Of a stretch of DNA of 64,000 nt, positions 3,606 through 12,942 are shown in pieces. The stretch comes from Pelagibacterium luteolum. GTDB taxonomy: Bacteria > Pseudomonadota > Alphaproteobacteria > Rhizobiales > Devosiaceae. The notes below the pieces were generated by a model. It worked only from the letters and a program-made list of their open reading frames with translations, was not told the origin of the DNA and did no database searches. Numbering within the stretch: position 1 is the stretch's first letter; each line of letters starts with the position of its first letter. The stretch lies in assembly GCF_900100665.1 (NCBI RefSeq), contig NZ_FNCS01000001.1, forward strand, positions 761,026-825,025. The letters run 5' to 3'. The position numbers and the translations under genes were made by a program.

Positions 3606-4748
3606 CTAGATCCGCTTTGGTGCGGCAAAGATCCCAACCAGTTCTTTCTGGCTCGACGTGCCGGTCTTTTCCAGCAGTGACGCGACCTGATTACGCACTG
3701 TATGGATGGACGTGTTCCTGTCAGCCGCCAGTTCTTTCAAGCCCTTGCCCTGGACAAGCCCGCTAAGCACTGCGGCTTCGGCCGGGGACAGGCCAAACCG
3801 CGCCTGAGCGGCCTTGAGCATTGGCTGCGAGGAGGAAATGGAGATGATGACCGCTGCGTGGGAGCGGGTGCCCATGAGCTGGTGCATGGTCTGGCGCCCT
3901 TGTGTGCCAAGCGGGATGGCGCGCAAATATCCTGATGGCGTCAGATCGTCGATCGGGACGGCGATGCCATCGCCGAAATCGGAGCTTCCCGCCGCTGCCT
4001 TGGCCACAGCCTCTTGAATGAAATTCGAGCCCGCCTGATGGTTCATCATCAGCGAGCCGCCGAAATCGAGCGTGAGGACGCCCCCATCGAACAGGGCGCG
4101 TGCCTGGCGGTTGACCTCGAGCGGACGCCCCTGTTCGTCAAGGACGAGAAAGGCGGCACGCGCCTCTTCCATGAAGGTCTCTAGGATCGAGGCCTTGTTG
4201 GCCACACGGTGAGCACTCTGATTGAGGCGCAGCGAACGCTGCATATGGGGAACGATCAGCTCGACCACCGCCATCAAATCGTCTGTCGATGGTTCCGCCT
4301 TGGCGCGCGGCAACAGGGCGCTGAAGGTGATGATGCGGTGTTCCTTGTTGGACAGAACCGCCAGCCCGCCCGCATTGAGCTCGCCTTGTGGCTTGAGCCA
4401 CTCCGTATAGAACTTTGAGCGCTCGAGCACATTGGGTGGGACGAGTTCGTCCATCCGCAGCGACGCACCCTCAGGTTTGACGCGCAGGGCCTCGATGAGA
4501 ATGTTGTGTTGATCGTGATGCTGCTTGTAGCTGGCCCATGCAGCGTCGTCATGGCCGGAATAATAGGCGCCGAGGTTGCGGTTGGTGACCAGATCGTGGC
4601 TTGCGATGCAAGCAAAGGCCCCGAAGGCTGCGTGAAACCAGTCGCATACGGTCTGCCATTCGTCGGGCGCGAACGCCGCGTCATACACCGCGTCCATGAG
4701 GACGTTAACCGGTGCGGTGTTCGACGAAAAGGCTGCAGCAGAACGCAT
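3606..4748 (-). CDS. LuxR-type (GerE helix-turn-helix) transcriptional regulator
   Basis: About 380 residues. The C-terminal 65 residues form a LuxR/GerE DNA-binding domain (ARFGLSPAEAAVLSGLVQGK, later SIHTVRNQVASLLEKTGTS). The long N-terminal part has no motif I can name and may sense a small molecule. The ATG at 4748 is preceded by AAGGA at about 11 bases; an extended frame reaches 4856. It is divergent from the curlin at 4973 and adjacent to the curli locus, so it may play a CsgD-like role. CsgD is also a LuxR-type protein but is shorter and has a receiver domain, which is not evident here. Confidence 0.85.
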   Translation of the reverse strand: MRSAAAFSSNTAPVNVLMDAVYDAAFAPDEWQTVCDWFHAAFGAFACIASHDLVTNRNLGAYYSGHDDAAWASYKQHHDQHNILIEALRVKPEGASLRMDELVPPNVLERSKFYTEWLKPQGELNAGGLAVLSNKEHRIITFSALLPRAKAEPSTDDLMAVVELIVPHMQRSLRLNQSAHRVANKASILETFMEEARAAFLVLDEQGRPLEVNRQARALFDGGVLTLDFGGSLMMNHQAGSNFIQEAVAKAAAGSSDFGDGIAVPIDDLTPSGYLRAIPLGTQGRQTMHQLMGTRSHAAVIISISSSQPMLKAAQARFGLSPAEAAVLSGLVQGKGLKELAADRNTSIHTVRNQVASLLEKTGTSSQKELVGIFAAPKRI

Positions 4749-4972
4749 ATAATCTTTTATTCCTTGCCCGGATGACGCGGCGCAGGGCCAGAGGCTCACG
4801 ATCGATCCATCCCGATTGCGGGGATGGAAGCGTGGTACGGGCGTCGCGTCATTCAATTGCGTAAAATTTTATAGTTTGTCGTATCCAAGTTGAAACCACG
4901 TCAATTTGGATCAATTTAATTCGTTTAGGTCATCCTGCAGTCAACTTAGAACAAATAGACAGGCAGGCACCA
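4749..4972. promoter_or_regulatory. Divergent intergenic region between LuxR-type regulator and curlin
   Basis: About 220 bases, clearly more AT-rich than the genes on both sides, including an AT-rich stretch around 4860-4925. It must hold the promoters for both flanking genes. I could not define a convincing -35/-10 pair or operator by eye. Confidence 0.5.
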
Positions 4973-5416
4973 ATGAAAACTCTCCTCGCTTCAGTTCTTC
5001 TTTCAAGTTTGGCTAACGCTGCTTACGCATCGCCAGCCTATATACAGCAGTCACCCTTTCTGGACGCGGCGCCCGCGCTGACCATCGACATGGTCGACTT
5101 CTCCTCCATCGCTGCCCACGTCGACGAGGTGATGCGTCCCCTCTCCCAGGGGAACCTGCCGGCCGCGACGGTCATCCAGACCGGCCTGTTCAACCAGGCC
5201 GACATCACCCAAACGGGAACCGACAATCTCGGCCTCATCGTCCAGCGCGGCACGGCCAACTCGGCGTCTCTGCTGCAGGGCGGCAGCCGCAATATCGGCT
5301 TCGTCCAGCAAGTTGGCTATGGCAACGCCGCTGCGCTCACCCAAGTAGGGTCTGGCCACAATGCCTTCATCTCGCAGCAGGGTCGCGGCAACGTCGCCGT
5401 CGTGCGTCAATACTAG
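4973..5416 (+). CDS. Small curlin-repeat protein (CsgA/CsgB-like)
   Basis: Secreted amyloid subunit of 147 residues with a signal peptide ending near residue 19 (SSLANAAYA). After a linker of about 45 residues come roughly four to five curlin repeats of the Q-x-G-x-x-N type (QTGTDNLG, QRGTANSA, QVGYGNAA, QQGRGNVA). Size matches E. coli CsgA or CsgB; ending on a repeat with an arginine (VVRQY) slightly favours a CsgB-like nucleator or anchor, but this is uncertain. It is transcribed away from the LuxR-type regulator. Its TAG shares the bases CTAG with the stop of the convergent csgF. Confidence 0.9.
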   Translation: MKTLLASVLLSSLANAAYASPAYIQQSPFLDAAPALTIDMVDFSSIAAHVDEVMRPLSQGNLPAATVIQTGLFNQADITQTGTDNLGLIVQRGTANSASLLQGGSRNIGFVQQVGYGNAAALTQVGSGHNAFISQQGRGNVAVVRQY

Positions 5417-5700
5417 TTCGCCCCTTCCGCGCCCGGCCCGCCGGGCACTTCAGGCAGCTCGATCGGGTTGGGATTGGGCTGCAATATGCCCCCGAAGTCG
5501 GGAAAATCGATAACAAAGCTCGGGGAGGTGCCACCGCCACCTTCCGATTGCGCCGTCGCCTGGGAGATGAGCCAATTTCCATTGAGAGGGTTGCCCCCGA
5601 ACGATGGATTGATGGGCTCATAGACGAGGGAAGAGGCCATGGCCGGGGCGCCGGTCAGCGCCAGCGCGCCCATGCATCCCAGGATCATCAATGTTCTCAT
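5413..5700 (-). CDS. csgF: Curli assembly protein CsgF-like, copy 1
   Basis: Extracellular curli assembly factor of about 95 residues. In the known system CsgF caps the CsgG pore and helps attach the nucleator. It has a signal peptide (MRTLMILG through APAMA) and the diagnostic CsgF N-terminal motif SSLVYEPINPSFGGNPLNG followed by NWLISQATAQ. The C-terminal tail is short and proline-rich. The ATG at 5700 has AAGGA at eight bases upstream. It lies 46 bases downstream of a second CsgF-like gene, as the last gene of the leftward curli operon. Confidence 0.9.
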   Translation of the reverse strand: MRTLMILGCMGALALTGAPAMASSLVYEPINPSFGGNPLNGNWLISQATAQSEGGGGTSPSFVIDFPDFGGILQPNPNPIELPEVPGGPGAEGAN

Positions 5701-5746
5701 TGTCGTATCCTTTCCGCCGGCAGGACGAAGCCTGCGCGCCGCTCGA

Positions 5747-6004
5747 TTATTCTTCAGCCGTTGCGTCATCTTCATCGACCGGCTGCTCGCCGCCGCCGAT
5801 CAGACCTAGATCGGGGAAGTCGATGGCAAAGCTGGGCGCGCCGGCGCCCGGTGTCTGCGCCGTCGCCTGGGACAACAGCCACGCGCCATTGAGCGGATCG
5901 CCGCCGAAAGACGGGTTGACCGGCGCGTAAACCATGGACGAAGCCATGGCGGGTGCACTGACGAGAATGGCGGCTGTCGCCAGAGAAATCCGTGAGATTT
6001 TCAT
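5747..6004 (-). CDS. csgF: Curli assembly protein CsgF-like, copy 2
   Basis: Second CsgF paralogue, about 85 residues, with signal peptide (MKISRISL through APAMA) and the motif YAPVNPSFGGDPLNGAWLLS. It matches copy 1 closely through the mature N-terminal motif and diverges in the tail, which is acidic here (DEDDATAEE). GGAGG lies six bases before the ATG. Two CsgF copies beside several curlin subunits of very different size suggest each may serve a different subunit. Confidence 0.9.
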   Translation of the reverse strand: MKISRISLATAAILVSAPAMASSMVYAPVNPSFGGDPLNGAWLLSQATAQTPGAGAPSFAIDFPDLGLIGGGEQPVDEDDATAEE

Positions 6005-6026
6005 TTTTGCCTCCGATGGCATCGAA

Positions 6027-6656
6027 TTATTTGTCGAAGATGTACATGCGGCCAGGGACGATCACGACCACGTGGTTCTGCAGGCCGCCGATGCCGGTGG
6101 GCATGAGATAGCTGCCCGATGCCTGCGTCTGGACGGCCAGCACGGATGAATTGACGCCGCCCACGCTGATGGCGCCGGCAAGGTCGTTGCCGGCCTGGAT
6201 ATAGGCGACTTCGTTGCTGTTTCCCTCGACCCCGACCATCTGCAGATTGTCGTTGCCGATGCTCGCCTGCAGGACGGTGTTGTTTTCGCCACCCTGGTGG
6301 AGCAGCAGGGCATTGCCATTGCCCACCATCGCCTGGACCGCGCGATTGTTGGTGCCGGTCTGGTTGATGTAGGAGAGGTTGGAATTGCCCGTGATGCCCG
6401 ACTGGGCGAACAGATCGTCGCCAAGCTGATTGATCATCGTCGTGTTTGGCGCGCCTTCGGATGTGAAAGGCGAAAGAGCCGACTTCACGCTCTCGAGCAG
6501 CGCGATGCCACCCTCGGTGACCGGCACGTCGTACCAACCAGGCGCCGGCTGGTCGTAAAGGCTGATGATGTCGTCGCCGAGGGCGACCGATACGGTCAGC
6601 GCAATGGCCGCGAGCCCGGCGCCGAGCGCCTGCATCATTTTGGAAAATCTAACCAT
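6027..6656 (-). CDS. Curlin-repeat protein, medium size
   Basis: Secreted curlin-like protein of about 209 residues. A signal peptide of about 27 residues precedes a nonrepetitive segment, then about six repeats with imperfect Q/N spacing (INQTGTNNRA, HQGGENNTV, ASIGNDNLQ, VEGNSNEVA). Repeats are less regular than in the neighbours, which would fit a CsgB-like nucleator. The ATG is preceded by GGAGG and overlaps the end of csgH by eight bases, so the two are co-translated. The C-terminal 25 residues (VVVIVPGRMYIFDK) are nonrepetitive. Confidence 0.85.
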   Translation of the reverse strand: MVRFSKMMQALGAGLAAIALTVSVALGDDIISLYDQPAPGWYDVPVTEGGIALLESVKSALSPFTSEGAPNTTMINQLGDDLFAQSGITGNSNLSYINQTGTNNRAVQAMVGNGNALLLHQGGENNTVLQASIGNDNLQMVGVEGNSNEVAYIQAGNDLAGAISVGGVNSSVLAVQTQASGSYLMPTGIGGLQNHVVVIVPGRMYIFDK

Positions 6657-7053
6657 GCATTCCTCCCGAATGGCTGGTCGAACGCTGGACCAGATGATTG
6701 GCTGGGTGGCTGACCTCGATCGAGCACAGCGCCACGCCATGTGCATCGGTAACCTCGAAACCGGCTTCGATGTGTGCGCCGGTACCGAGCGTGACGGTTG
6801 GGCCATGGACCCGACCCGCGAAAAACCTGTTCGCCTGGCGTGTCACGGACCGTCCGCCATTTGAAACCGAGGTGACCACGAAGCTGTATTCGCCTTCGAC
6901 ATCCTCACCGGCCAGAAAGATCGGCTGCAGGGTCGTCGTTTCGTTGGAAGCCATTTCGATGGCGCAGCGCGTGACACCTGTTGCCAGGACATCGGCTTCG
7001 AAGCTCAGGACTTCGGACGCGACCATCAATGCTACCCCCAGTATCGCAATCAC
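6649..7053 (-). CDS. csgH: Curli assembly chaperone CsgH-like
   Basis: Periplasmic chaperone of about 134 residues including an N-terminal hydrophobic segment (MIAILGVALMVASEVLS). CsgH occurs in alphaproteobacterial curli operons and keeps curlin subunits from polymerising in the periplasm. The beta-rich body carries the pair of cysteines expected (TRCAIEM and ALCSIEV) and the SVSNGGRSVTRQANRF stretch. A GTG start is likely; its ribosome site is weak, so the start is uncertain. It lies 53 bases after the giant curlin gene and overlaps the next curlin, so all belong to one leftward operon. Confidence 0.8.
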   Translation of the reverse strand: MIAILGVALMVASEVLSFEADVLATGVTRCAIEMASNETTTLQPIFLAGEDVEGEYSFVVTSVSNGGRSVTRQANRFFAGRVHGPTVTLGTGAHIEAGFEVTDAHGVALCSIEVSHPANHLVQRSTSHSGGMHG

Positions 7054-7106
7054 CGTTCAAACCTTTTGAGGATGCCGCGCGGGAGAACCCGCGCGGCGCA
7101 GTTTGC

Positions 7107-10100
7107 TTAGTTGCCCTGAACCACGGCAGCCATGTTGCCCTGGCCCCACTGGACCACGGTGGCCGCATTGTGAGCGCCCGACTGGATGACAGCGGCGCGG
7201 TTGGCCTGGGCGAGGGTGTCGCCGGTGCCGACCTGGAAGACGTTGGCCGTCTGGCTTTCGCCGCCCTGGAGGACCAGGGACGCGCTGTAGGAGCCGAATT
7301 GGACAACATTCGCTTCATGACCGCCGGCTCCGCCCTGAAGGATCGCAGCCGTCGAATGATCGGCCGAGGTCAGAATGGTAGCGGCATTGCCATTGCTCGA
7401 CTGGGCGATAAAGGCGCCGTTGTCGCTGCCCGCCTGAACCGTGAGCGCGGTGTTCGCCGATCCGGTCTGGATCGTGATGGCACCATTGCGGTCACCGATC
7501 TGAGCGGTGGTCGAGAGGTCAGCGGCGGCAACCGAGAGACCTCCAAGGCCATCTGCCAACAGCGTTTCAAGGCTGATCGTGCCCGTCTGGCTGGTGGACG
7601 AGAAGTTGCCGTTACCGATCTGGATGGTGCCGGCGGCGACAGCCACTGCAGCTTCCTGATTGGTGAGGGCGACGTTTCCATTGCCCGACTGAACGGTAGC
7701 GGCGAGCGCACCGACGGTCAGTTCCTGGCTCTGGAGGGCAAAGTTGCCGTCTTCGAGCTGGACGATGCCGGCCAGCGAGGCGATCGCACCGGTCTGGCTG
7801 TTGATGGCAAAGTTGTCGTCACCGAGCTGAACGATACCTGCAGCCGAAGCGACGGTCGGGATCGAGAATTCGCCAAGCGGATTGGTGCCACTTACGGATG
7901 TCTCCGTGGATGCGCTTTCTTGGCTCCAAGAGCCAAATAGGCCCAGGAAACCCGCCGGCGTATATTCAGCCCAATACGCAGTCTGCGTTTGGCTGATGGT
8001 ACCCTCGCCCGGCATGATCAGCTTGCCTGCTTGCGCATTGATCGCAGTATTGCTCTCGCCGACCTGCACGACCACTGCCATCGCAGCCTCTGCCGGAGCA
8101 TTTCCGCTGCCGGATATCTCCGAGTCGGCGCCCGCTAGGCCCACACGGAAGCCCGCGATCTCGGTTGTGAGATCAAAATCGAGCATAGACAGGCCGTAAG
8201 TAACGGTCTGCTCTTCGCCCTGCACGTTGAAGGCATTATTGCCCGAACCCACCTGAACGATGGCAGCAAGGACATCCGAGCTTTCGTTCTGCTGCAGGTT
8301 CGCACCCACGTTGCCGACACCGAACTGGCCGATGAACGCCGTGGCGTCTTCGACGTCGTTCTGGGTGTTGAAGGCAAGGTTGAAGCCGCCGGCCTGGATA
8401 GTCGTCGCGGAGCTGCCGTCAGCCTCTGTCTGGCTGTTGGCGGCGCCATTGCCGACGCCGACCTGAACGATCAGCGCATCAGCACCTGCGGTCTCGCCCT
8501 GGACGTTGCCGGCCCAGTTGAAGCCACCGATCTGGAAGATGTCGGCGGAAAGGTTCGAACCATTGGACTGGACGTTGCCTGCGTTGTTGTTGACGCCAGC
8601 CTGGAAGATGGCGGCATCGACGCTCGCAACGTTTTCGACCTGAACATTGCCACCGGCATTGTTGGCGCCGATCTGCGTGACCCGGGCGGTGTTGCCCACG
8701 CCATCAGTCTGGAAGTTGGCACCCGTGTTGTTGAGGCCGTATTGGGCCACGACAGCTTGGTTGCCTTCGCCGCCATCCTGAACGTTCAGACCAGTGTTGT
8801 CGGCGCCGACCTGCAGCACGTTCGCGACCAAAAGCTCGCCCTCGGACTGGAGATTGGTGCCATCGTTGAACGCACCGATCTGTTCGATGCCAGCGGCGTT
8901 GGTGGCGCCATCGGCCTGAACGTTGGTCGCTGCGTTGTCGAGACCTATCTGGTTCACGCTGGCGTGGAGGTCCGTACCGCCCGTCTGCGTGTTGCTGGCT
9001 TCGTTCAGAGCGCCCGCCTGTGTGATGCCAGCGAGACCGTTGGAGCCATTGGTTTGCGCGTTGGCGGCTTCGTTGCCGAAACCGTACTGCACAATGCTGG
9101 CTTCGGCATCCGTGCCACCGGCCTGAGCATTCGAAGCGGTGTTTGCGACACCGTACTGCGCGATACCGGCAGCAAGATTTGATCCGCCAGTTTGCGCATT
9201 CTCGGCCAGATTGAAGGCACCGAATTGGTCGCTGCCAGCATCGTTCCCGATACCGTCGGTCTGCGCATTGCTCGCCTGATTCATAAGGCCGACCTGGTTG
9301 ACGCCAGCGTCGTTGCCGAGCGCAGCGTTGCCGCCATTGGTCTGTGTGTTGGTAGCGAAGTTACCGGCGCCAGCCTGTGAAATCGCGGCTGTGGCCGAGT
9401 AGGGGTTGGTCTGTGTGTTGGTGCCTACGTTTCCAGCGCCAAACTGCTCAATGCTGGCGACGCCCTGGGCGGCACGATCCTGTTCGTTGGCCGCGATATT
9501 GCCGACGCCGACCTGTGCGATCGTTGCCTGGTTGTCGGTGTTGAAATGCGCGGGCGAGCCGGGCAGGTTGGTCTGGGCGTTGGACGCCAGGTTGCCGACG
9601 CCGATCTGTGTGATATCCGCCGACAAGTCGGCGCCGCTATCCTGTGCGTTGGATGCAGCGTTGAAGGCACCGAACTGGGCGACGTTGGTATCGCTCGTGG
9701 TCGTGCGCCACTGCTCATTCTCCGCGGCATTGCCGACACCGGCCTGAACAATGTTGGCCGTGTTCTGTGTCTGCGGCGCAGAGTGATTATTTGAGGATTG
9801 ATCGTTGGTCGCTACGTTGCCCAGGCCGAACTGTGCGATCTCGGCCGAGTTCGAAGTGAAAGTGGGCGAGCCGCTTCCCTGAAGAACCTGGCTATTAGTC
9901 GCCTGATTGGCTGCGCCGACCTGAAGGATCGAAGCATCGTTACCGAGATCATTGCTGACGGCCTGATTGCCGCCACGCTCGGAATAATTGCTGGCCTGAT
10001 TGCCAATACCGAACTGAGCAATTTCCTTCTCATGGCCAGTGCCGCCGTTGTTGGCGTTCTCGGCTTCGTTGCCTGCGCCGACCTGGAGAATTTCGCTCGA

Positions 10101-11066
10101 ATTCGCGCGTCCATCATTCTGCAAATTCGTACCGGTGTTGCCGATGCCGAACTGTGCAATGTCCGCCTGGTTCAAACGATTGTCGTTGCCGCCATGGAAT
10201 GTGCCGGTCTGCGAATTGATAGCCTGATTGGCGACGCCAACCTGATTGATCGAGGCCGTGTTGTCGTGATTTACGCCAGTCGATTGCGTGTTCGACCCAA
10301 CGTTGAACGCGCCGAACTGCGTGACGGATGCGTCGAGCTCCGTGCCGCCCGTCTGGGTGTTCGAGGCGATGTTGCCAGCGCCCTGCGACCAGATGCTGGC
10401 ATCGGCGTCGGGAGCGTTGGTCTGGCTGTTGACGCCGAAATTGCCGGCGCCGAGCTGGACGATGGCCGAATCGGCATTAGCCGAGCTGTCCTGAGCGGAC
10501 ACTGCGAAGTTGGACGTGCCGCCCTGGAAGATGCGGCCGATCTGGTCTGCACCCTGCTGGTTGTTGAAGGCGATGTTGCCGAAGGCTTCCGAGCCGTTAA
10601 TCTGGATGATGCCGCCGTCGTTGCCTTCGCCGTTCTGGATGTTGCTGGCGAGGTTGTAGTTACCGCCCTGGAAGACCGCGCCGCGGTTGTCCACGCCGGT
10701 CTGACGGAATTGGCCGACAGCGTTGCCATTGCCGAACTGGGCGATGGCGCCGACATTGTCTCCGGACTGGTGGAGATTGCCGCCAACGAAGTTGTTGCGG
10801 CCCATCTGATAGACGCCGAGCTCGTTGGTGCCCTGTTGTGCAACGCCGTTCAAGCCGGGTGCGTAGGGCAGGAACACGTTGCTCTCGCCATACTGGTAGA
10901 TGAATCCGGTGTTGCCGGCGGCAGGGCCGGCGGCGATCTGAACGAGGTAGGCCAGGTTGTTTTCGTTGTACTGGCCCACATAGGCCGTGTTCGACGTTTG
11001 CGCCAGGGCGCCGCTGGCGCTCAAGGCAGCCAAGGCCACGCCGGCCATAAGAGTATATCGGGTCAT
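7107..11066 (-). CDS. Giant curlin-repeat protein (about 1,319 aa)
   Basis: Very large predicted functional amyloid subunit. A signal peptide (MTRYTLMAGVALAALS through GALA) is followed by roughly 50 units built on Q-x-G-x-x-N-x-A-x-N-x-Q-T (examples QFGAFNVGSN, QVGVGNIAAN, QIGLDNAATN). Repeat length is about 22 residues, as in CsgA, which has only five. Two nonrepetitive inserts interrupt the array in the C-terminal third, one starting after NAFNVQGEEQ and one around AYWAEYTPAGFLGLFGSW. There is no cysteine-rich or enzymatic domain. GGAGGG precedes the ATG at 11066; the open frame starts at 11090. It leads the operon giant curlin - csgH - curlin - csgF - csgF. Secretion through the CsgG-like pore is inferred. 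Confidence 0.95.
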   Translation of the reverse strand: MTRYTLMAGVALAALSASGALAQTSNTAYVGQYNENNLAYLVQIAAGPAAGNTGFIYQYGESNVFLPYAPGLNGVAQQGTNELGVYQMGRNNFVGGNLHQSGDNVGAIAQFGNGNAVGQFRQTGVDNRGAVFQGGNYNLASNIQNGEGNDGGIIQINGSEAFGNIAFNNQQGADQIGRIFQGGTSNFAVSAQDSSANADSAIVQLGAGNFGVNSQTNAPDADASIWSQGAGNIASNTQTGGTELDASVTQFGAFNVGSNTQSTGVNHDNTASINQVGVANQAINSQTGTFHGGNDNRLNQADIAQFGIGNTGTNLQNDGRANSSEILQVGAGNEAENANNGGTGHEKEIAQFGIGNQASNYSERGGNQAVSNDLGNDASILQVGAANQATNSQVLQGSGSPTFTSNSAEIAQFGLGNVATNDQSSNNHSAPQTQNTANIVQAGVGNAAENEQWRTTTSDTNVAQFGAFNAASNAQDSGADLSADITQIGVGNLASNAQTNLPGSPAHFNTDNQATIAQVGVGNIAANEQDRAAQGVASIEQFGAGNVGTNTQTNPYSATAAISQAGAGNFATNTQTNGGNAALGNDAGVNQVGLMNQASNAQTDGIGNDAGSDQFGAFNLAENAQTGGSNLAAGIAQYGVANTASNAQAGGTDAEASIVQYGFGNEAANAQTNGSNGLAGITQAGALNEASNTQTGGTDLHASVNQIGLDNAATNVQADGATNAAGIEQIGAFNDGTNLQSEGELLVANVLQVGADNTGLNVQDGGEGNQAVVAQYGLNNTGANFQTDGVGNTARVTQIGANNAGGNVQVENVASVDAAIFQAGVNNNAGNVQSNGSNLSADIFQIGGFNWAGNVQGETAGADALIVQVGVGNGAANSQTEADGSSATTIQAGGFNLAFNTQNDVEDATAFIGQFGVGNVGANLQQNESSDVLAAIVQVGSGNNAFNVQGEEQTVTYGLSMLDFDLTTEIAGFRVGLAGADSEISGSGNAPAEAAMAVVVQVGESNTAINAQAGKLIMPGEGTISQTQTAYWAEYTPAGFLGLFGSWSQESASTETSVSGTNPLGEFSIPTVASAAGIVQLGDDNFAINSQTGAIASLAGIVQLEDGNFALQSQELTVGALAATVQSGNGNVALTNQEAAVAVAAGTIQIGNGNFSSTSQTGTISLETLLADGLGGLSVAAADLSTTAQIGDRNGAITIQTGSANTALTVQAGSDNGAFIAQSSNGNAATILTSADHSTAAILQGGAGGHEANVVQFGSYSASLVLQGGESQTANVFQVGTGDTLAQANRAAVIQSGAHNAATVVQWGQGNMAAVVQGN

Positions 11067-11371
11067 GATGCCCTCCGAATGAATCCCCACATAGAGGGGC
11101 GTACCCCTCCCTCAAGCCCCAAAGGTCGCCAGGCCACCTTCGGTTAACAATATGTTAAATCGCTGGGATTAGTTCGAAGCGCAAGTCAAACTTCAAATCA
11201 AATAAGTCTATCGTAAACACGAGTGGTAAACATGTGACTCGATAGCAAGTAATAGTCAAAATCTACTATGGATATTTTCTTGGAGCGTAGTGCATATGCA
11301 CTATGACGGGCGCAGAGCACAAAAAAGGGCGCCTCAGGCGCCCTTTGACGATCGGTGATGTAGAAAATCGG
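11067..11371. promoter_or_regulatory. AT-rich leader of the giant curlin operon
   Basis: About 305 bases without a gene. The left two thirds are AT-rich, unlike the surroundings, and must carry the promoter of the giant curlin operon. A GTAAACA motif occurs twice (near 11213 and 11226). The right end contains the csgG terminator. Confidence 0.45.
11321..11346 (-). terminator. Rho-independent terminator of csgG
   Basis: Perfect inverted repeat AAAGGGCGCC - TCA - GGCGCCCTTT, followed on the minus strand by a run of six T. It lies about 25 bases after the csgG stop and separates csgG from the giant curlin operon. Confidence 0.9.
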
Positions 11372-12211
11372 CTACTGCACTGGCGCCGTGTATTGCTGAT
11401 TGTAGGCGGCGACCAGGGTTGCCTTTGCGCTTGAGTCGCGCAGATCCCATAGGCCGCGCTCCAGCCCCTCGACGACCAATGAGAATACCGCCAGTTCGAT
11501 CGCTTCGCGCACCGCAAGTTGGGTCGGATCGTTACGCGCCATACCGGCTTCGATCTCCAGCAGACGCTGGGGTTCGGCAAAGACATACGCCCCGGCGCGG
11601 TTCATGTAGGAATAGATCTGCTTTGTAGTCGTAGTCGAGGCGAGAACCTCGCCATTCTGTACGCTGACCGCGCGCAGGTTCACGGTGACCGTATCGGACC
11701 GGTATTCCGTATCGGCACCGATGCCGAAATAGCGTGCGCCCGCACCACCGGACATCGTGTCGGCATCATACCCGACGATCCCGCCTTCAAGGATGATGCC
11801 GGCAAAACGGATCGGGGGCAGCGGGCCAACGCCGCCATAGGCGGAATTGGTATTTTCGATCAGCGTGCGTTCCTGGACGAGATTGCGCAACCCGGTGCGT
11901 TCGGCAATGCGGAACCACTGGCCATCGCCGGCCCGCGTCAGGACATCGACGAGGATCTGTGCACCGCCCTGGGTAACGGCACGGCTCGATTCGGCGAAAT
12001 TGGGATTGGGCCGGGCCTGTCCTGTCAGGTCTGCGAATTCGTAGACCGCGACGTCAAGCGGCTGGCGCGGCGGGGGTAGGGTGCGCAACGAAGCGGTGGC
12101 GTGTGTGTCGCTCACGAGTGTCGCCGCGGGCGCATTGGACTGCTGCCCCATCGTGGCGCAGCCCGTAAGAAGAACGGCTGATACCAGCGCGACTGCGATG
12201 CCTCTGAACAT
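11372..12211 (-). CDS. csgG: Curli secretion channel lipoprotein CsgG
   Basis: Outer-membrane pore subunit through which curlin subunits leave the cell. 279 residues, the usual size. A lipoprotein signal ends in the lipobox LTGC with the lipidated cysteine at residue 18. The body matches the CsgG domain: DVAVYEFADLTGQ, the glycine/alanine-rich GGAQILVDVLTRAG, RTGLRNLVQER, and SVQNGEVLASTTTTKQIYS. GGGGGA lies before the ATG. It forms its own leftward unit with a strong terminator. No CsgE adaptor gene accompanies it in the window. Confidence 0.95.
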   Translation of the reverse strand: MFRGIAVALVSAVLLTGCATMGQQSNAPAATLVSDTHATASLRTLPPPRQPLDVAVYEFADLTGQARPNPNFAESSRAVTQGGAQILVDVLTRAGDGQWFRIAERTGLRNLVQERTLIENTNSAYGGVGPLPPIRFAGIILEGGIVGYDADTMSGGAGARYFGIGADTEYRSDTVTVNLRAVSVQNGEVLASTTTTKQIYSYMNRAGAYVFAEPQRLLEIEAGMARNDPTQLAVREAIELAVFSLVVEGLERGLWDLRDSSAKATLVAAYNQQYTAPVQ

Positions 12212-12400: not shown

Positions 12401-12805
12401 CTAGTTGGCGACCGCGCCTGGTCCCACCGATGGCAATTGAGCGACTGTCTGGGGCGTGAGGATAACCGTCACGCCCGCGCCGACCGAAGGCACTGGGTCT
12501 TCGCCAGGCGCTGCAACGATCGGTGCATCATCGGTCACGGTATTCCAGTCCTCGGGCCGCGAAGCGCTTTCGTCAGTAGAGACGAAGGCCTGTGCCACGG
12601 GCTGTTGCACGATGCGGGTCGCGACCGGTTGTGGACGGATTCGCGCCGATGACGGAAGCTGGGTAATGGCGGTCAGCGGTGGCGAGGGCAGCTGCCGAAC
12701 ATGGGTGGCCGGCCCCCGGTCGACTTGGTTTACCCCCACCGGCTGGCCCGAAACCGGCGCCACGGCGCCCAAAAGAATGGCTAGGGCATATACTGCAGGG
12801 CGCAT
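12401..12805 (-). CDS. Small secreted protein of unknown function
   Basis: About 134 residues with a clear signal peptide (MRPAVYALAILLGAVAPVSG) followed by a proline- and valine-rich, low-complexity mature part. I recognise no domain. It lies about 190 bases upstream of csgG in the same direction and may be an accessory curli-locus protein. The upstream ribosome site is weak (GAGAG), and an open frame extends to 12838. Confidence 0.55.
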   Translation of the reverse strand: MRPAVYALAILLGAVAPVSGQPVGVNQVDRGPATHVRQLPSPPLTAITQLPSSARIRPQPVATRIVQQPVAQAFVSTDESASRPEDWNTVTDDAPIVAAPGEDPVPSVGAGVTVILTPQTVAQLPSVGPGAVAN

Positions 12806-12942
12806 GGCGGACTCTCGGTATTGCTGTCGGTTGCCCACTAATACGGGCAGGCTGTCAAAGGCGCAACTGTCGCTTTTCGGTCTGGCAATCGATTAGACAT
12901 CAGTATATTCCATTTCCGATATTTTCGGCAGGGGGAAGACTT

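Follow-up and report, generated by a model that had tools for sequence, protein, structure and literature searches.

A giant curlin with an asparagine column and paired inserts in a csg cluster of Pelagibacterium luteolum

RESULTS AND DISCUSSION

A giant curlin-repeat protein

The 64,000-nucleotide stretch of Pelagibacterium luteolum DNA analyzed here (contig NZ_FNCS01000001.1, positions 761,026 to 825,025; hereafter the window) carries a gene for a protein of 1,319 residues with 45 curlin-type coils. We read this giant, with a probability of about 0.72, as a CsgA-type curlin, predicted to form a long beta-solenoid, secreted through CsgG and likely to be the major subunit of an extracellular amyloid fiber. 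What looks new here, judged from sequence, is a column of asparagines at one core position of the coil together with a fixed layout of paired inserts. Size alone is not new, since curlins with 4 to 62 repeats (the maximum in WP_189563214.1; PMC10192328), with 3-52 repeats (PMC12822426) and with up to 22 repeats in 529 residues (Dueholm 2012, PMC3521004) have been published. The initial annotation of the window had expected a chain with all repeats stacked to be far longer than any CsgA, which these counts do not support. It mentioned neither the asparagine column nor the conserved order of insert, coil and insert, nor that the CsgF proteins are short. The giant should interest amyloid specialists; it is not a new kind of system.

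The open reading frame spans 11066 to 7107 of the minus strand. Its 1,319 residues are counted from an ATG that has GGAGGGCATC ahead of it. Both coordinates and length were correct as first annotated, with the strand left unstated. By eye, from the translation, the N terminus resembles a signal peptide, MTRYTLMAGVALAALSASGALAQ. The protein contains 47 copies of the motif QxGxxN and 41 of QxGxxNx5Q, against means of 2.17 (maximum 9) and 0.22 (maximum 3) in 1,000 residue shuffles. Segmentation with a position matrix, trained on strict repeats from four curlins including the giant itself, gave 45 coils; in 50 shuffles it gave 0.8 on average and never more than 4. The "about 50" repeats of the initial annotation thus come to 45-47. 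The protein matches the Pfam curlin model (PF07012, Curlin_rpt; 25.6 bits, cut-off 20.7) and exceeds the cut-off of the NCBIfam CsgA model NF007470 (168.3 bits against 160), while its score of 151 bits against the NCBIfam CsgB model is below that cut-off of 165. Its coils are of the QX10Q type, about 23 residues long with N/Q ladders, and its gene keeps the company of csgG, csgF and csgH. Taken together, these features support a curlin-type subunit within a curli cluster, as had been proposed.

Three proteins serve for comparison below: a 1,299-aa ortholog with an intact frame in genome G175, from a different genus; a 717-aa ortholog in G081, from a different family, whose length assumes a start picked by eye; and a 791-aa curlin in G195 (L090:8907-11294). 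The parts of the giant are as follows.

7107..11066, minus: giant curlin gene, 1,319 aa (frame, repeat count, Pfam and NCBIfam models)
10998..11066, minus: signal-peptide-like N terminus, residues 1-23 (by eye; 17/23 identical to the G175 ortholog)
10476..10997, minus: N-terminal irregular coils, residues 24-197 (4 scored coils; 91/174 identical to G175)
8220..10475, minus: asparagine-core array, residues 198-949 (31 scored coils, mostly at a 23-residue pitch, with several gaps of 27-31)
8085..8219, minus: insert 1, residues 950-994 (similar to insert 1 of G081 and G175)
8028..8084, minus: lone coil between the inserts, residues 995-1013 (from the segmentation; same layout in G175, G081 and G195)
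7848..8027, minus: insert 2, residues 1014-1073 (similar to insert 2 of G081; similarity to G175 not detectable)
7110..7847, minus: C-terminal domain (9 scored coils; position 16 is T, I or V in 7/9)

An asparagine column at position 16

The curlin kernel has been described as N-$-Psi1-$-Psi2-$-Q, present twice, with the Psi residues (A, I, V, L, F, S or T) pointing inward at positions 3, 5, 14 and 16 (PMC10192328). In the giant, position 16 is Asn in 34/45 coils, and the column is unbroken through 33 scored coils with starts from 198 to 1074; the remaining C-terminal coils carry Q, T, T, T, I, I, V and V. The G175 ortholog has Asn16 in 33/45 coils, again with no interruption from the array up to and including the coil that directly follows insert 2, and the G081 ortholog in 14/24. 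None of the 27 coils of the G195 protein has it; there, position 16 mostly alternates between V and T, and gaps of 22 and 25 make up a two-coil super-repeat. Among 633 distinct strict coils in a comparison pool, position 16 was Asn in 12, Thr in 137 and Ser in 32. This pool, which held the other frames with at least three strict coils in the fetched loci, excluded both orthologs as well as 15 loci belonging to the window's genome (L077, from the window's genome and with a third curlin, was not on the exclusion list); it comes mostly from the same order and is therefore no measure of curlins at large.

Because of the Asn at a Psi position, we file the giant as a curlin variant rather than a CS or NCS curlin, the kernel by which PMC10192328 defines those classes being departed from in the same 34 of 45 coils. 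No description of Asn at position 16, or of the two-insert layout, was found in the literature passages and listings searched. Thirty-three scored coils in a row with Asn at a Psi position amount to a natural experiment on the cohesion of an amyloid solenoid.

Two inserts around a single coil

The two nonrepetitive inserts reported in the initial annotation are present, at residues about 950-994 and 1014-1073. The same order, consisting of array, insert, one coil, insert and C-terminal domain, is found in all four proteins. The two inserts open coil-start gaps of 63/79 in the giant, 63/98 in G175, 75/81 in G081 and 82/80 in G195. Ahead of insert 1 there are 35 scored coils in the giant and in G175, 15 in G081 and 19 in G195; after insert 2 the corresponding counts are 9, 9, 8 and 7. 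Insert 1 of the giant is similar to that of G081 (22/44 identical, z 7.5) and of G175 (17/37, z 3.8). Insert 2 is similar to its G081 counterpart (33/60, z 15.6) and not detectably so to that of G175 (z 1.1). The inserts of G195 show no detectable similarity to those of the giant (z -1.0 and 0.5), and we do not claim common descent for them. The layout is thus more widely shared than the insert sequences.

Comparison with known curlins

Polar curlin cores are not new as such, and long arc-2 insertions are an already known class. The long curlins of PMC10192328, such as WP_189563214.1, are like the giant in repeat number, which was counted there by hidden Markov model hits; compared by repeat count alone, WP_189563214.1 may be a relative of the giant or the giant itself. 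The CsgA of Pontibacter korlensis (R15.5; PDB 8c50) has 15.5 coils against 45 in the giant, and the giant has Asn16 in place of the published Psi residues A, I, V, L, F, S and T. In the D-class curlins (arc-2 insertions, Sediminicola sp. YIK13; PMC10192328), as in the giant, insertions after motif b lengthen the repeats. Indeed, the giant shows the arc 1/arc 2 insertions or incomplete motifs that mark this class, with gaps of 63, 79 and several of 27-31. Unlike the D-class curlins described there, it has two long inserts with exactly one coil between them, an arrangement recurring in four proteins. The Ser/Thr-core curlin-like proteins (Sinorhizobium fredii A0A249PTX6; PMC10192328) also have polar Psi residues. 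In that type, however, they are Ser/Thr and the genes are reported outside a csg operon, whereas the giant has Asn at one position and lies inside a csg cluster.

Age of the repeat array

Tandem Repeats Finder detected no array in the DNA of the giant (0 rows), and the 33 coil cores of 18 codons share a mean DNA identity of 55% (maximum 78%). Thirty-one array coils were compared with those of G175, gapped cells being dropped. At the core set of positions 1, 3, 5, 7, 9, 12, 14, 16 and 18, 210/264 cells (80%) were identical, against 51/264 (19%) at the rest; in this division the Gly at 9, although an arc residue, counts toward the core set, whereas arc residues 8, 10 and 11 do not. Asn16 is common to both proteins in 29/30 array coils. 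Given the lack of tandem DNA, the diverged cores and the core-set identity to G175, the array is old and selected for the coil; on this sequence evidence it is not a recent expansion, nor an assembly error.

Relatives and distribution

Full-length matches to the giant were obtained in 2/136 genomes of the family, in the same 2 among 397 genomes in the order sample, and in 1/385 in the class sample, namely the window itself. The giant and its G175 ortholog are 41.4% identical over 1,370 columns (BLASTP) or 47% (MAFFT), and their C-terminal domains 137/about 245; the C-terminal domain of the giant is 101/205 identical to that of G081. On the 3' side of the G175 gene are a weak csgH match (21%), a degenerate curlin (55%) and csgF. 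No CsgG match was found in that one-contig genome, nor any csgG remnant in the 19-kb locus (best tblastn E 0.11). By eye, an IS3-like transposase pair lies upstream of the giant in this cluster (L023:2664-4965), which retains csgF. The G081 ortholog came from the order sample and is the only match among 20 genomes of its family; its locus has the same gene order as the window, with a CsgG (60% identical) upstream and csgH, a curlin, csgF and a convergent curlin downstream.

Within the genus, csgG is present in 1/13 genomes, the window's own, and the other 12 gave no CsgG match; curlin repeats occur in six of these others. CsgA/B with CsgH is a common cluster composition (PMC12822426). A CsgG match was found in 8/136 family genomes, two of them weak (G022 and G473), and the stretches fetched around these two held no curlin-like frames. 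Besides the window's genome, five have strong CsgG matches, with curlin frames nearby: 2-4 frames of 438-614 aa in G023, G419, G489 and G442, and frames of 352 and 286 aa in G437. Two of the other csgG-bearing family members (L036:11496-16062 and L038:8825-14698) carry three and four tandem curlin frames of 438-577 aa and no single giant. In an unrooted FastTree of 13 CsgG sequences, those of the window and G081 stand apart from the 11 others (support 0.996), seven of which are from the window's own family; this grouping suggests either transfer or a lineage that has long been separate.

A 283-aa database protein, P0004, has seven Asn coils and sequence resembling what flanks insert 1; it appears to be a piece of a further member. 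Its stretch at insert 1, however, shows no detectable similarity to that of the giant (z 0.5), with z 3.7 to G081 and 3.0 to G175. In the protein database, the whole giant matched 1/7,997 scored candidates, a two-sequence profile 2/7,997 (E <= 10) and a 347-aa piece of the giant 2/7,992 (E <= 1); with repeat bias and a limited candidate set, this scarcity is only weak evidence of rarity. A CsgG scan of genome contigs gave two loci, both from Nitratireductor, with a curlin in a 319-aa frame. Of 72,556 plasmid records, 10 matched the giant, with a best coverage of 76% at 30.9% identity, and none matched P0004. Frames in G348 (1,171 aa) and G334 (1,165 aa) were unconfirmed as giants, the curlin-like frames fetched there being of 175-623 aa.

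Predicted structure and a working model

AlphaFold2 modelled a piece of 8 of the 45 coils as a beta-solenoid with a predicted local distance difference test score of 85.6, resembling the solved curlins 8c50 and 8enq; the alignment for folding was made from non-overlapping pieces of the giant. Of the three outcomes that the initial annotation had named as counting against it, two were checked, a non-solenoid prediction and a frame broken in relatives. Neither was seen, given this model and the intact G175 frame.

If the giant is secreted as we propose, its chain would pass through CsgG and across the outer membrane in an unfolded state, and then stack end to end. With the coil spacing of 4.8 A given in PMC10192328, 45 coils would add about 22 nm of fiber per chain, versus ~2.4 nm for a 5-repeat CsgA. 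The Asn16 side chains may form an extra hydrogen-bonded ladder replacing part of the hydrophobic core. Near the C terminus of the rod, both inserts, each following motif b, would jut from the same edge, and a hairpin 3' of the gene may favor the giant over the downstream products. A bolder and decidedly doubtful extension is that the protein acts as a ruler, in which the Asn array would be a fixed spacer, the paired inserts a lateral knob, and the Asn ladder a replacement for one of the four Psi columns, with repeat number setting the knob spacing. That spacing would be about 22 nm for the 45 coils of the giant and of G175, and about 12 nm for the 24 coils of G081. Curlin length is known to vary, and its purpose is testable with orthologs that have related C-terminal ends and a twofold difference in array length (35 versus 15 scored coils before insert 1).

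Three other readings were weighed against a CsgG-secreted, fiber-forming subunit. The giant might be a low-copy scaffold, anchor or nucleator, with a smaller curlin (the 147-aa product of 4973..5416 or a 163-aa frame elsewhere in the genome, on contig C37) as the major subunit. A regular 6-repeat curlin does adjoin it, the contig C37 frame provides another, and the ends of the giant are better conserved relative to G175 than is the array (91/174 and 137/about 245, against 146/378 and 101/286), as for binding ends. However, the hairpin between the giant and csgH in 3/3 loci would suit a higher output of the giant, and we consider this reading unlikely. We find it quite improbable that the giant is a large adhesin or a surface layer protein that forms no amyloid and has borrowed its curlin-type repeats. 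Four very large Shewanella adhesins do have regularly spaced curli-like repeats (Dueholm 2012, PMC3521004), and the inserts could bind ligand, but at an E value of 0.01 Pfam finds Curlin_rpt alone in the giant, with no other adhesin domain, and the gene lies within the csg cluster, as does its G081 ortholog. A repeat gene with no present function, either in decay or grown by selfish expansion, to which the patchy distribution (csgG in a single genome of the genus, G175 without a csgG match and with transposases upstream) might speak, is hardly credible for an array with no DNA-level tandem repeat and with coil cores 55% identical on average, yet 80% core-set identity to G175.

The csg cluster around the giant gene

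The genes around the giant, from csgG downward, are listed below.

11372..12211, minus: CsgG secretion channel, upstream of the giant on the same strand (Pfam CsgG, 176.6 bits)
11324..11346, minus: terminator-like hairpin with T run, between csgG and the giant
7073..7098, minus: GC-rich hairpin between the giant and csgH (folding z -3.89)
6649..7053, minus: CsgH (NCBIfam chap_CsgH_alph 47.4 bits, cut-off 35; Pfam CsgH 26.5, just below 27)
6027..6656, minus: second, degenerate curlin with a nonrepetitive C terminus (weak Curlin_rpt, 17.7 bits, below the cut-off of 20.7)
5747..6022, minus: CsgF, N-terminal part only (Pfam CsgF positions 6-47 of 132)
5413..5775, minus: second CsgF, N-terminal part only (Pfam CsgF positions 7-47 of 132)
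4973..5416, plus: third curlin, 147 aa, convergent (Curlin_rpt 51.1 bits; 6 full repeats)
3606..4856, minus: LuxR-type regulator adjoining the cluster, with at most a putative link to curli (Pfam GerE 23.5 bits, at the cut-off)

The neighbors first annotated, CsgH, another curlin (here seen to be degenerate) and two CsgF proteins, are thus all present, along with CsgG and the third curlin. That the giant is the first gene of an operon is plausible in that a terminator-like site separates it from csgG, yet such sites are similarly common by chance (9 in the region, against a shuffle mean of 7.1 with a standard deviation of 3.1). Between 4800 and 12900, no sigma-70-like promoters were found (shuffle mean 2.1), and an Rfam scan returned nothing at gathering score. 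The hairpin after the giant has z scores of -4.24 in G175 and -4.46 in G081 (L023:8886-8936 and L088:10867-10928). Its stem sequences differ among the three loci, and position rather than sequence seems to matter.

The N-terminal segment of CsgF sits within CsgG. The two csgF genes (5413-6022) overlap, resemble each other and are both C-terminally short; in G175 and in G081, both match a single frame. By eye, both retain the N-terminal stretch VYxPxNPSFGGxPLN and end in a short tail, and the same holds for G175, G081 and Nitratireductor (L008). In other family members (L035, L036 and L037), CsgF has a longer C-terminal part. The short CsgFs hint at a lower dependence on CsgF-held nucleation; a CsgF-CsgB interaction is mentioned in PMC10192328. 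A short CsgF is not peculiar to giants, because Nitratireductor pairs one with a curlin of ordinary size.

Upstream of csgG, a 145-aa frame on the minus strand (12401-12838) has a signal-like start; neither Pfam nor NCBIfam gave a match to it, and eight loci searched at E 1e-3 yielded no relative. The degenerate second curlin is 55% identical to its G175 counterpart and 47% to that of G081. Its nonrepetitive end, MPTGIxGLxNxVVVIVPGRMYxF, is common to G175 (L023:9291-10001) and is a candidate cap or anchor.

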